Made by a program: the position numbers and the translations under genes. Shown here piece after piece: positions 14,849 through 19,425 of a DNA stretch of 39,244 nt. How positions within the stretch are numbered: the stretch's first letter is position 1; every line of letters starts with the position of its first letter. The DNA is taken from assembly GCA_002154585.1 (NCBI GenBank), contig MUNG01000003.1, forward strand, positions 1 to 39,244, written 5' to 3'. Source of the DNA: Streptomyces pseudogriseolus (lineage in GTDB: Bacteria > Actinomycetota > Actinomycetes > Streptomycetales > Streptomycetaceae). A model generated the notes under the pieces. It worked only from the letters and a program-made list of their open reading frames with translations. It made no database searches and was not told where the DNA came from.

Positions 14849-15892
14849 ATGTCTCGCAGCATCAATCTCGCAGTGATCCCCGGTGACGGCATCGGCCAGG
14901 AGGTCGTGACCGAAGGCCTGAAGGTCCTCTCCGCCGTCCTTCCGCAGGATGTGAAGCTGGAGACCGAGGAGTACGACTTCGGCGCCCGGCGCTACCACGC
15001 CACCGGTGAGACCCTCACCGACGCCGACCTCGACGCCCTCAAGCGGCACGACGCGATCCTGCTGGGCGCCATCGGCGACCCGGGCGTCCCGTCCGGCGTC
15101 CTGGAGCGGGGCTTCCTGCTCAAGCTCCGCTTCGCCTTCGACCACCACGTCAACCTGCGTCCGTCGAAGCTCCTCCCGGGCGTCGCCACCCCGCTCGCCG
15201 GGCAGCCCGAGATCGACTTCGTGGTCGTCCGCGAGGGCACCGAGGGCCCCTACACGGGCAACGGCGGCACCATCAGGAAGGGCACGCCGCACGAGGTCGC
15301 CACCGAGGTCTCCGTGAACACGGCCTTCGGTGTCGAGCGCGTGGTCCGCGACGCCTTCGCCCGCGCCCAGGCGCGCCCGCGCAAGAAGCTGACGCTGGTT
15401 CACAAGAACAACGTGCTGACCTTCGCCGGCCACCTGTGGACGAACGTCTTCACCAAGGTGGCCGCGGAGTACCCGGACGTCACCACCGACTACATCCACG
15501 TCGACGCCGCGACCATCTACCTGGTCACCGACCCCGGCCGGTTCGACGTCATCGTCACCGACAACCTCTTCGGCGACATCATCACCGACCTCGCCGCTGC
15601 CGTTTCCGGCGGCATCGGCGTCGCGGCCTCCGGCAACATCAACCCGAGCCGCGAGTACCCGTCCATGTTCGAGCCCGTGCACGGCTCGGCCCCGGACATC
15701 GCAGGACAGGGCAAGGCGGACCCCACCGCCACGGTCCTGTCCGTCGCCCTCCTGCTGCGCCACCTCGGCCACGACGCCGAGGCCGCCCGCATCGAGGACG
15801 CCGTCTCCGCCGACCTCGCGGAGCGCGGCGCCCTGCCCGCCCGCTCGACCTCTCAGATCGGCGACGCCCTCGCCGCACGAGTAGCCGGCTGA
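14849..15892 (+). CDS. leuB: 3-isopropylmalate dehydrogenase
   Basis: It oxidatively decarboxylates 3-isopropylmalate with NAD+ in leucine synthesis. The 347-residue protein starts [12 protein letters not shown], the family's opening, and has the substrate arginines around [15 protein letters not shown], the catalytic Lys/Tyr region ([21 protein letters not shown]), the metal-binding aspartates in the segment from [14 protein letters not shown] on, and the nucleotide-binding [16 protein letters not shown]. With about 347 residues it belongs to the shorter actinobacterial type. A GAGGAG lies about a dozen bases before the ATG. It is followed by a terminator and then ilvE, so the two are probably separate units. 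LeuB of this type may also act on the citramalate-derived substrate for isoleucine. Confidence 0.96.
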
Positions 15893-16144: not shown

Positions 16145-17233
16145 ATGACGACGCCCACGATCGAGCTGAAGCCCTCGGCCCATCCGCTCTCCGACGCGGA
16201 ACGAGACGCGATCCTGGCCAGCCCCGGCTTCGGCCGCCACTTCACCGACCACATGGTGACGATCAAGTGGACCGAGGGCCGCGGCTGGCACGACGGCCAG
16301 CTCGTCCCGTACGCGCCGATCCCGATCGACCCGGCGACCACGGTGCTGCACTACGCCCAGGAGATCTTCGAGGGGCTCAAGGCCTACCGGCAGCCCGACG
16401 GGTCCGTCGCCACGTTCCGTCCCGAGAAGAACGCCGAGCGGTTCCAGCGGTCCGCCCGCCGGCTCGCCATGCCGGAGCTGCCGGTCGAGACCTTCATCGA
16501 GGCGTGTGACGTCCTGGTCGCCCAGGACCAGGCGTGGGTGCCGGCCCACGGCGGCGAGGAGTCCCTCTACCTGCGCCCCTTCATGATCGCGACCGAGGTC
16601 GGGCTGGGCGTGAAGCCCGCCAACGAGTACCTCTTCCTGGTGATCGCCTCCCCGGCCGGCGCCTACTTCCCGGGCGGCGTGAAGCCCGTCTCCATCTGGG
16701 TCTCCGAGGACCGCGTCCGCGCCGTCCCCGGCGGCATGGGCGACGCCAAGACCGGCGGCAACTACGCGGCCTCCCTGCTCGCGCAGGCCGAGGCGGCCGC
16801 CAAGGGCTGCGACCAGGTCTGCTACCTCGACGCCGTCGAGCACACGTGGGTCGAGGAACTGGGCGGCATGAACCTGTACTTCGTGTACGGCAACAAGATC
16901 GTCACGCCCACCCTCACCGGCTCCATCCTGGAGGGCGTCACCCGCGACTCCCTGCTGGACGTCGCCCGCGACCTCGGTTACGAGGCGGTCGAGGAGCGCG
17001 TCTCGGTCGAGCAGTGGCAGCGCGACTCGGAGAACGGCACGCTGACCGAGGTCTTCGCCTGCGGCACGGCCGCGGTGATCACGCCGGTCGGCACCGTGAA
17101 GCGGGCGAGCGGCGAGTGGCAGCAGGGCGGCGGCGAACCGGGCGAGGTCACCCTCCGCCTCCGCCAGGCCCTCCTCGACATCCAGCGCGGCACGGCGGAG
17201 GACAAGCACGGCTGGATGCACAGGCTGGCCTGA
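16145..17233 (+). CDS. ilvE: Branched-chain amino acid aminotransferase
   Basis: This PLP enzyme interconverts Ile, Leu and Val with their 2-oxoacids. The 362-residue protein belongs to the longer, class IV BCAT type shared by actinobacteria and eukaryotes. The Schiff-base lysine is K202 in [26 protein letters not shown] and [13 protein letters not shown] line the substrate pocket, and WVEELGGMN and [12 protein letters not shown] bind PLP phosphate. The ATG follows GTGAAGGA. It stands alone between two terminators, after leuB and before cimA, so it is probably its own transcription unit. Confidence 0.97.
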
Positions 17234-17550: not shown

Positions 17551-17579
17551 GTGAGGGGGTGGGCGCGGTGTGTCAAAAT
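17551..17579 (+). promoter_or_regulatory. Candidate promoter of the cimA leader
   Basis: CAAAAT at 17574-17579, in a locally AT-rich patch, would be the -10; GTGAGG at 17551-17556, 17 bases upstream, is a weak -35 matching TTGACA at three positions. Transcription would start at about 17586, the G of the leader GTG, so the leader peptide would be translated from a leaderless message. This arrangement parallels that before ilvB. Confidence 0.4.
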
Positions 17580-17585
17580 TGGGCC

Positions 17586-17636
17586 GTGCTCTCGTTCGCC
17601 ACGATTATTGGCAGCAGGCGCGCCGGTCCGCAGTGA
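17586..17636 (+). CDS. cimA leader peptide (16 aa) with tandem Ile codons
   Basis: The GTG frame encodes MLSFATIIGSRRAGPQ. Residues 7 and 8 are both Ile, written as ATT ATT, while Ile in cimA itself is ATC throughout the parts I read. The stop codon (17634-17636) abuts a perfect hairpin, and a U-tailed terminator follows before cimA, exactly as at ilvB. Citramalate synthase feeds the isoleucine pathway, so an Ile-only signal makes biological sense. There is no Shine-Dalgarno, which fits leaderless translation. The rival reading, a GTG at 17570 in another frame, has no such codon pattern. Confidence 0.7.
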   Translation: MLSFATIIGSRRAGPQ

Positions 17637-17662
17637 CCGCCCGTACGACACCGTACGGGCGG
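17637..17662 (+). promoter_or_regulatory. Leader hairpin directly after the cimA leader stop codon
   Basis: Perfect 11-bp arms CCGCCCGTACG (17637-17647) and CGTACGGGCGG (17652-17662) with a 4-base loop. As at ilvB it begins at the base after the leader stop, so leader translation to the end would prevent it forming. Confidence 0.75.
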
Positions 17663-17690
17663 ACACCGTCGTCCTCGACCCGCGCGCAGA

Positions 17691-17715
17691 CCTCTCGCAC
17701 CCGCGAGGGGTTTTT
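17691..17715 (+). terminator. cimA attenuator (intrinsic terminator)
   Basis: CCTCTCGC (17691-17698) pairs with GCGAGGGG (17703-17710) with one G-T pair and an ACCC loop, followed by TTTTT (17711-17715). Its loop-proximal CTCGC/GCGAG and the T tail resemble the ilvB attenuator. It lies 108 bases before the cimA start, with no other gene in between. Confidence 0.85.
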
Positions 17716-17823
17716 CTGTTTCTCGGCCCACCCGCAGCCGGGAACCTGGCGCGAGGGACCATGGGGGAACGGTGGAACCGGTCATTCCGGTAGACCGAGA
17801 TCCAGTACAGGAGCCTTCAGACC

Positions 17824-19425
17824 ATGACCGCAACCAGCGAGCTCGACGACTCGTTCCACGTCTTCGACACCACCCTGCGCGACGGCGCCCAGCGCGAGGG
17901 CATCAACCTCACGGTCGCCGACAAGCTGGCCGTCGCCCGGCACCTGGACGAGTTCGGCGTGGGCTTCATCGAGGGCGGCTGGCCCGGCGCAAACCCGCGG
18001 GACACCGAGTTCTTCGCGCGGGCCCGGCAGGAGATCGAGTTCAAGCACGCCCAGCTGGTCGCCTTCGGCGCCACCCGCCGCGCCGGCACCACCGCCGACC
18101 AGGACCCCCAGGTCAAGGCGCTCCTCGACTCCGGCGCACCGGTGATCACGCTGGTCGCCAAGTCCCACGACCGGCACGTCGAGCTCGCCCTGCGCACCAC
18201 CCTGGACGAGAACCTGGAGATGGTCCGCGACACCGTCTCCCACCTCCGCGCCCAGGGCCGCCGCGTGTTCGTCGACTGCGAGCACTTCTTCGACGGCTAC
18301 CGCGCCAACCCCGCCTACGCCAAGTCCGTCGTCCGCGCCGCCGCCGAGGCCGGCGCCGACGTGGTGATCCTGTGCGACACCAACGGCGGCATGCTTCCCG
18401 CGCAGATCCAGGCCGTGGTCGCCACCGTGCTCGCCGACACCGGCGCCCGGCTCGGCATCCACGCCCAGGACGACACCGGCTGCGCGGTCGCCAACACCCT
18501 CGCCGCCGTCGACGCGGGCGCCACCCACGTCCAGTGCACCGCCAACGGCTACGGCGAGCGCGTCGGCAACGCCAACCTGTTCCCCGTCGTCGCCGCGCTG
18601 GAGCTGAAGTACGGCAAGAAGGTGCTGCCCGAGGGCCGGCTGCGCGAGATGACCCGCATCTCCCACGCCATCGCCGAGGTCGTCAACCTCACCCCCTCCA
18701 CCCACCAGCCCTACGTCGGCGTCTCCGCCTTCGCCCACAAGGCCGGACTGCACGCCTCCGCGATCAAGGTCGACCCGGACCTCTACCAGCACATCGACCC
18801 CGAGCAGGTCGGCAACACCATGCGGATGCTGGTCTCCGACATGGCCGGCCGCGCCTCCATCGAGCTCAAGGGCAAGGAGCTCGGCATCGACCTGGGCGAC
18901 GACCGCGAACTGGTCGGCCGGGTCGTCGAGCGGGTCAAGGAGCGCGAGCTCAAGGGCTACACCTACGAGGCCGCCGACGCCTCCTTCGAGCTGCTGCTGC
19001 GCGCCGAGGTGGAGGGCGGGCCGCTGACGTACTTCGAGGTCGAGTCCTGGCGCGCCATCGTCGAGGACCGCCCCGACGGCACCCACGCCAACGAGGCCAC
19101 CGTGAAGCTCTGGGCCAAGAGCGAGCGCATCGTCGCCACCGCCGAGGGCAACGGCCCGGTGAACGCGCTCGACCGCGCCCTGCGCGTCGCCCTGGAGAAG
19201 ATCTACCCGCAGCTCGCCAAGCTGGAGCTGGTCGACTACAAGGTCCGCATCCTCCAGGGCGAGCACGGCACCCAGTCCACGACCCGGGTGCTGATCTCGA
19301 CCTCCGACGGGGCGGGGGAGTGGTCCACCGTCGGCGTCGCGGACAACGTCATCGCCGCCTCCTGGCAGGCGCTGGAGGACGCCTACGCGTACGGGCTGCT
19401 GCGCGCCGGGGTGGAGCCCGCCTGA
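17824..19425 (+). CDS. cimA: Citramalate synthase (LeuA/HMGL family)
   Basis: The 533-residue protein has the HMG-CoA lyase-like barrel with the signature DTTLRDGAQREGIN (about residues 15-28), metal-binding HAQDDTGCAVAN, NGYGERVGNANLFPV, and a C-terminal LeuA-type allosteric dimer domain (about 400-525, ending QALEDAYAYGLLR). The length and the opening match the CimA branch rather than 2-isopropylmalate synthase proper, which in Streptomyces has a different, longer N-terminus. CimA joins acetyl-CoA and pyruvate to (R)-citramalate, giving 2-oxobutyrate for isoleucine without threonine. Older annotation calls it leuA2. The ATG at 17824 follows CAGGAG. The upstream Ile leader supports the assignment. 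An isopropylmalate or homocitrate synthase activity cannot be excluded by reading alone. Confidence 0.88.
   Translation: MTATSELDDSFHVFDTTLRDGAQREGINLTVADKLAVARHLDEFGVGFIEGGWPGANPRDTEFFARARQEIEFKHAQLVAFGATRRAGTTADQDPQVKALLDSGAPVITLVAKSHDRHVELALRTTLDENLEMVRDTVSHLRAQGRRVFVDCEHFFDGYRANPAYAKSVVRAAAEAGADVVILCDTNGGMLPAQIQAVVATVLADTGARLGIHAQDDTGCAVANTLAAVDAGATHVQCTANGYGERVGNANLFPVVAALELKYGKKVLPEGRLREMTRISHAIAEVVNLTPSTHQPYVGVSAFAHKAGLHASAIKVDPDLYQHIDPEQVGNTMRMLVSDMAGRASIELKGKELGIDLGDDRELVGRVVERVKERELKGYTYEAADASFELLLRAEVEGGPLTYFEVESWRAIVEDRPDGTHANEATVKLWAKSERIVATAEGNGPVNALDRALRVALEKIYPQLAKLELVDYKVRILQGEHGTQSTTRVLISTSDGAGEWSTVGVADNVIAASWQALEDAYAYGLLRAGVEPA

Follow-up and report, generated by a model that had tools for sequence, protein, structure and literature searches.

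A predicted isoleucine-sensing transcription attenuator upstream of the citramalate synthase gene cimA in Streptomyces and related actinobacteria

The window analysed in this study is a stretch of 39,244 nucleotides from Streptomyces pseudogriseolus (contig MUNG01000003.1 of assembly GCA_002154585.1), and all positions refer to it. Three genes lie there in the same direction, namely leuB (14849-15892) and ilvE (16145-17233), which we take to be such from their sequences, and cimA (17824-19425). The assignment of the latter to citramalate synthase, made in a preliminary description of this DNA, was confirmed with TIGR00977 (631.1 bits, curated cut-off 450). Upstream of cimA, the following features were identified:

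17574..17579, forward strand: -10-like hexamer CAAAAT, 6 nt upstream of the leader GTG (motif count in cimA elements)
17586..17636, forward strand: leader open reading frame of 16 codons, MLSFATIIGSRRAGPQ, stop codon TGA (sequence; frame kept, with a compensating stop in deletion rows)
17604..17609, forward strand: Ile codons ATT ATT, the proposed sensor (genus-wide ATT at the first codon; ATT in 266 of 270 elements)
17618..17628, forward strand: 5' strand of helix P1, GCGCGCCGGTC, 14 nt downstream of the beginning of the first Ile codon (folding, covariation)
17637..17662, forward strand: P2, a perfect 11-bp hairpin with the loop ACAC, a variable apical hairpin within P1, directly 3' of the stop codon (sequence)
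17677..17687, forward strand: 3' strand of helix P1, GACCCGCGCGC, at the end of which the terminator stem begins (folding, covariation)
17688..17715, forward strand: intrinsic terminator with an 11-bp stem (17688-17698/17703-17713), the loop ACCC and a U-tract at 17711-17715 (sequence, pairing, covariation)
17824..19425, forward strand: cimA, citramalate synthase, the proposed regulated gene (TIGR00977)

The leader frame reads GTG CTC TCG TTC GCC ACG ATT ATT GGC AGC AGG CGC GCC GGT CCG CAG TGA, and this frame with its two ATT codons, as well as the perfect hairpin abutting its stop codon, were present as the preliminary description had placed them. The terminator, with the core CCTCTCGC-ACCC-GCGAGGGG at 17691-17710 followed by T17711-17715, was also correctly located 108 bases upstream of the cimA ATG at 17824. 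However, the extent of its stem had to be revised to 11 bp starting at 17688, because AGA pairs with the first three U, a pairing kept in 33 of 33 rows of the Streptomyces alignment A1. Helix P1, which had been overlooked, comprises ten pairs around one C-C mismatch, encloses P2 and is followed by the terminator stem with zero gap in the predicted fold. The 137-nt leader has a folding energy of -71 kcal/mol as opposed to -50.2 ± 3.7 kcal/mol for shuffled sequences, and none of the 200 shuffles was as good.

The distribution of the element was assessed at increasing taxonomic depth. A DNA search, the query of which also held 77 bases of cimA, matched 149 of 150 genomes of the genus at E ≤ 0.001, the window's own genome included. 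The covariance model R1, built from 33 genus rows, matched all 81 genomes and 17 of 17 genera of the family sample (15 of the 81 being the genus itself), as well as all 147 genomes of the order sample, of which 15 lie outside the family, one of these with a weak match (E 0.059). At class level, R1 found 142 of 296 genomes at E ≤ 0.01, and a second model, R2, built from 70 chosen rows, found 185 of 296 genomes and 84 of 114 genera at E ≤ 1e-4, tallies that include 28 genus genomes and some matches preceding genes other than cimA. In a phylum-wide sample, R2 matched 24 of 149 genomes at E ≤ 0.001, and these 24 include six from the class. Since cimA is present in 234 of the 296 class genomes and some of the 185 matches lie before other genes, many cimA genes have no recognisable element. 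Where the element does occur, its position is nearly constant: a listed cimA place in the same genome was entered by hand for 101 class matches, 100 of which are found on the cimA strand at a distance of 26-231 nt upstream of the gene, and the remaining one precedes an ilvA-like gene. One family with small genomes (f27), in which cimA is present, has no genome among the 185 R2 matches, and either the leader was lost in these streamlined genomes or the element is too diverged. Hits on tRNA genes (L254, L255; judged by eye) and weak hits in apparent coding DNA without a terminator (L219, L259, L360) were set aside as chance. One cimA (G397:C101:7133-8689) carries a single in-frame TGA in its match.

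For the comparison of codons within the genus, 170 rows were used, consisting of the best 80 named loci of a longer list, 29 loci from the DNA search, 60 added loci that were hand-chosen and mostly divergent, and the window. For geometry, P1 and the terminator were located by a detector that contains no covariance model and gives a bonus for a nearby Ile codon; it found 270 elements among 273 unique cimA upstream regions, most of them from Streptomyces, failed on L190, L274 and L302, and mis-set at least one (L222). Neither the genus rows nor the 270 cimA elements are independent, as they contain many close relatives and only identical rows were removed. The first Ile codon is ATT in 170 of the 170 genus rows (169 ATT-ATN, one ATT-ACG), and the second position is occupied by ATT in 121, ATC in 32, ATG in 16 and ACG in one. 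Thus, of the tandem rare Ile codons proposed in the preliminary description, the ATT at the first position holds throughout the genus, whereas a strict ATT tandem does not. Among the 270 cimA elements, 31 have a single Ile codon, and at least one ATT occurs in 266. ATT is rare in the window, with one ATT and 116 ATC, i.e. 1 of 117 Ile codons, in the seven open reading frames chosen as genes. The use of particular, little-used regulatory codons agrees with theory on attenuation sensitivity, as set out in passages of PMC1183508.

The behaviour of the frame in rows with a deletion is informative with regard to translation. Of the 144 unique genus rows, 118 have no deletion; all of them end at the same TGA, and the other frame has no stop at all in the examined stretch of these 118 rows. 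The other 26 carry a 1-nt deletion inside the frame, between the Ile codons and P1. In 25 of these, the shifted frame has gained a TGA and terminates there, seven bases more distant from the start of P1 than the usual stop codon, and the 26th (L148), which has an insertion, stops earlier. This pattern is hard to explain other than by selection on where the ribosome stops, and the comparison therefore indicates that the leader frame is under selection and translated. A -10-like motif lies 6-9 nt before an in-frame ATG or GTG in 239 of the 270 cimA elements, in 196 of these at 6 nt, as compared with 376 of 3292 other NTG triplets. Because the start codon follows just behind this hexamer, the cimA leader transcript is probably leaderless and would start at the GTG. 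In S. coelicolor, according to the part of PMC4895711 considered here, 21% of the primary transcription start sites give leaderless mRNAs.

The case for P1 rests on covariation. In an alignment of 70 chosen rows fitted to model R1, double changes in P1 and the terminator amounted to 96 cells, as opposed to 16.1 ± 3.2 after shuffling and at most 11 when the strands were slid; in a sequence-only MAFFT alignment, restricted to those 33 of the 42 class-level loci L272-L313 that have short loops, there were 48, as opposed to 10.7 ± 2.7 and at most 7, respectively. Within Streptomyces, P1 hardly varies and its strands are nearly invariant, so that covariation says little there. The helix score exceeded the 95th percentile of dinucleotide shuffles in 38 of 57 rows outside the genus and in 30 of 30 sampled Streptomyces rows, and the 99th percentile in only 20 of 57 and 1 of 30. 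A single P1 helix is not always beyond chance in GC-rich DNA, and since shuffled controls often match the score of an individual helix, it is the joint change of paired bases that carries the argument. The C-C mismatch in the middle of P1 (17624 and 17681 in the window) is kept in 33 of 33 rows of alignment A1; some other families pair at this place.

Between P1 and the terminator stem, the gap is 0 nt in 253 of the 270 cimA elements, 1 nt in 10 and 2 nt in 5, with a one-base overlap in two, one of which (L222) is a mis-set helix; 268 of 270 elements are without a shared base. The first Ile codon precedes P1 by 11-14 nt in 264 of 270. Of the 270, 57 rows with loci numbered from L220 upwards lie outside the genus; here the gap measures 0 in 41, 1 in 9, 2 in 5 and -1 in 2, P1 follows the Ile codon at 11-14 nt in 52, ATT occurs in 54 and a leaderless-type start in 51. 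The loop enclosed by P1 is between 3 and 64 nt long, with 106 nt in one further row. The hairpin at 17637-17662, noted in the preliminary description, does not belong to this conserved framework: P2 is variable in alignment A1, is too large for the space available in most of the A3 rows that come from outside the family, and in other families it is mostly absent, with the stop codon often at the foot of P1, e.g. ATT ATT GCC TAG CGC (L308), so that the spacing between the Ile codon and P1 is unchanged. P2 was accordingly rejected as a functional hairpin. The conservation of Ile codons, hairpin and terminator that had been expected thus applies to the codons and the terminator but not, outside the family, to the fast-changing P2, the conserved partner being P1. 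The preliminary interpretation of an Ile attenuator before cimA is partly supported as a whole; its central idea is strengthened, as conservation of the Ile codons and the terminator extends far outside the genus and the codon identity switches with the downstream gene.

In the rows compared, the frame, the Ile codons, P1, the terminator and their spacing are conserved, and the codon identity follows the gene. We consider it quite likely, judging from these comparisons, that the element is a transcription attenuator operated by the ribosome, with charged Ile-tRNA as the signal sensed. The transcript would start at the GTG of the 16-codon leader, which would be translated as it emerges. The front edge of a ribosome lies some 12 nt ahead, counted from the first base of the codon in the A site. 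With scarce Ile-tRNA, the ribosome would stall at ATT ATT and its front edge would stop at the foot of P1, leaving the 5' strand of P1 free to pair with the 3' strand. With ample isoleucine, the ribosome would reach the stop codon and cover the 5' strand; P1 would be blocked, the terminator would close and transcription would end. Antitermination would be steric, since the P1 duplex and the closing base of the terminator would have to occupy the RNA exit channel together. The start of transcription at the GTG, the direction of control and this steric role of P1 are our inferences.

Folding with the ribosome-covered stretch blocked agrees with part of this scheme. Over the 270 rows, P1 had a probability above 0.5 in 98.5% when the ribosome was stalled at Ile, in 0% when it was at the stop and in 98.9% without a ribosome, and the terminator core had a probability above 0.5 in at least 98.9% in all three ribosome states. 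P1 thus responds to the ribosome as an antiterminator should, yet takes no bases of the terminator. Since the two abut and share no bases, exclusive pairing does not explain the switch, and the zero gap in 253 of 270 points to a contact effect. As P1 forms without a ribosome, read-through of untranslated leaders is predicted, which counts against the scheme; untranslated leaders of trp-type attenuators are not known to read through in this manner. No conserved partner for the 5' arm of the terminator, CCTCTCGC, was found elsewhere in the leader by eye or by ensemble folding. The terminator loop ACCC could also pair with GGT in P1, but this interaction looks weaker than P1 itself. A 5-bp hairpin over the stop codon (CGGTC/GACCG) was not kept in all rows by eye and was dropped. 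With respect to the usual features of an attenuator, the comparative evidence supports a translated frame with codons of the pathway, a predicted terminator lies between this frame and the gene, and folding and covariation point to a helix, P1, that is permitted by the stalled ribosome and prevented by the ribosome at the stop; mutual exclusion through shared bases was not found, with no shared base in 268 of 270. We therefore file the cimA element, on sequence grounds, as attenuator-like in its presumed working, a variant without shared bases.

That P1 and the terminator coexist in the predicted ensembles also fits another explanation, in which the ribosome does sense Ile for attenuation as proposed, whereas P1 serves as a pause or timing hairpin or as a stacking aid to the terminator, and the switch is the ribosome close behind the polymerase, or a transient pairing that was not found. 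A hairpin about 11 nt upstream of the active site of the polymerase can pause it. However, timing needs no abutment, and the gap is 0 nt in 253 of 270 elements even though the P1 loop varies so widely in length, which makes this explanation rather unlikely compared with a sterically acting P1.

A hint that the codons act as the sensor comes from copies of the same build before other genes. These were found as follows:

ilvB leaders: L300, L321, L323, L325, L327-L331, L333, L335, L336, L339 and L358; 12 of the 14 from genomes outside the window's class
ilvA-like leader: L304, MQLHLMAIT
leuB-like leader: L337
leuA-like leader: L322, MSQNLLLT
leuS leaders: L218 (window's own genome), L334 and others
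leaders before ACT-like genes: L227-L234, L239, L240, L297 and L340; at least one Ile codon at the sensor place in 12 of 12, by eye

The codons of the compared leaders suit the gene: Ile before cimA and the ACT-like genes, Val, Leu and Ile before ilvB, and Leu before leuS. When the count is limited to frames that are set by a stop codon at P1, some cimA frames being second frames of one locus, the last five codons before cimA comprise 78 I, 14 V and 14 L of 235 (47 frames), and those before ilvB 17 V, 9 L and 6 I of 40 (8 frames). In this run, the detector failed on L336, L358, L304 and L355 and probably mis-set a few loci (such as L300, L333, L337 and L339), the leaders of which were read by eye. 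The ilvB leaders, L300 (MTSRRDRVVP) and 13 further loci, carry codons for Val, Leu and Ile, in many cases the rare GTA, CTT and ATT; in 7 of the 13, ilvB starts about 450-750 nt downstream, which leaves room for a small gene in between. By Pfam, the L300 gene has TPP-enzyme domains, that of L304 matches the broad PALP family and that of L218 carries leucyl-tRNA synthetase domains. The names ilvB (L300) and ilvA (L304), as well as those of the genes at L337 and L338, are our presumptions; the other ilvB genes and the leuS of L334 were named by tblastn to the L300 and L218 genes, and L235-L238, L253 and L258 from the leader peptide and the frame behind. L338, with an aminotransferase followed by a serA-like frame and no branched-chain codons, was left out of the targets, and L324, L326 and L332 were left out of the target count. 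This natural swap series, the same build with codons changed along with the gene, points to the codons as the sensor.

The near-invariance of the P1 strands in Streptomyces, C-C mismatch included, would also suit a metabolite- or protein-binding, riboswitch-like RNA with an incidental or secondary short frame. This is very unlikely, since in other families the P1 sequence and loop vary while the pairing is kept, the codons switch with the gene, and the deletion and stop pattern speaks for a translated frame. In addition, Rfam gave no family at the gathering cut-off in the window, T-box included, the matches below the cut-off being unrelated families, and nothing at the cut-off at eight related loci apart from one tRNA. 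The strong terminator and the conserved sequence within the genus led us to consider a terminated leader of about 130 nt that also acts in trans as a small RNA, which is more improbable still, as the frame, P1 and the terminator explain the conserved parts and 100 of 101 matches have retained their location upstream of cimA. That the structure is only the terminator of ilvE, which ends at 17233 on the same strand, with the frame there by chance, is hardly credible given the promoter-like site and start codon in between, the association with cimA across the class and the selection on the frame.

Compared with known systems, the ribosome-sensed attenuator proposed here comes closest to leaders of other branched-chain genes, and actinobacterial ilvB and leuS leaders are already known. 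In the passages used, PMC1262725 names trp, cys, leu, ilvB, leuS and ileS elements in actinobacteria, and PMC8079986 lists eight leader peptides for S. lividans; cimA does not appear in these passages of either paper. The leuS leader of Streptomyces (leuL2, MRAVRLLLSEPR), predicted as a classical attenuator in a passage of PMC1262725 and listed in PMC8079986, resembles that of cimA in its short frame with a run of one amino acid, a long-range helix just past the codons and a U-tailed terminator; it differs in its Leu codons, in its gene and in the spacing, as its helix stands, by eye, about 2 nt away from the terminator. In the window's own genome, this leader is matched by R1 (E 4.4e-4) and was not among the R2 matches at E ≤ 5. 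The ilvBNC attenuator of Corynebacterium, as described in parts of PMC11857589 and PMC10272879, likewise has branched-chain leader codons and places antiterminator and terminator bases side by side. In C. glutamicum, two hairpins lie side by side with three bases in common (from PMC11857589), and for C. ulcerans ilvB the proposed antiterminator uses the 3' shoulder of the terminator (from PMC10272879). The ilvBNC hairpins share a GCC trinucleotide and are mutually exclusive, according to these excerpts, whereas the cimA element shares no base (268 of 270); gene and codon set differ as well. The Streptomyces ilvB and leuA leaders, described in sections of PMC1262725 and PMC8079986 and called leaderless in the latter, are similar in being leader frames before branched-chain genes, and neither R1 nor R2 picked them up in the genome of the window. 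Earlier attenuation work on them gave conflicting results, as told in a passage of PMC1262725. According to the same account, regulation in S. coelicolor was unaffected when codons of the ilvB leader were altered (Craster 1999), which counts against the Ile-attenuator model; this kind of leader is not among the own-genome R1 and R2 matches. We recognised no description of the cimA leader in the literature searched; it may have been listed earlier, e.g. in supplementary tables.

More tentatively, and with considerable doubt, it can be proposed that Actinomycetota share one family of ribosome-sensed attenuators for branched-chain metabolism, in which a helix abuts and sterically blocks the terminator instead of competing for its bases, and which might comprise cimA, ilvB, an ilvA-like gene, an orphan ACT gene similar to the small subunit of acetohydroxyacid synthase (AHAS), a leuB-like gene and leuS. 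If so, the lack of base competition would leave the codons freely exchangeable to fit each gene. As cimA is the entry to threonine-independent isoleucine synthesis, this step would gain a specific Ile sensor in many actinobacteria, antibiotic producers included. Should P1 indeed stop the terminator without shared bases, the rule of mutually exclusive pairing in attenuators would need an addition, and the cimA leader would be a clean place for testing attenuation in Streptomyces.

In several genera, the orphan ACT-like protein, of about 75-114 amino acids and akin to the acetolactate synthase small subunit, has an Ile leader of its own a short distance upstream of its gene. Its ACT assignment lies below the curated cut-offs, and in a search against solved structures two AHAS small subunits followed with E 0.18 and 0.24 behind an unrelated match at 0.061; from its position, it may be an Ile-controlled regulatory subunit. 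At L241, a copy of the element has no recognisable ACT gene behind it and perhaps represents a decayed locus. At two phylum-level loci, L326 and L332, a protein of about 92-95 amino acids (starting MRFELYGRD and MKLQINNG, respectively) is encoded directly behind the leader.
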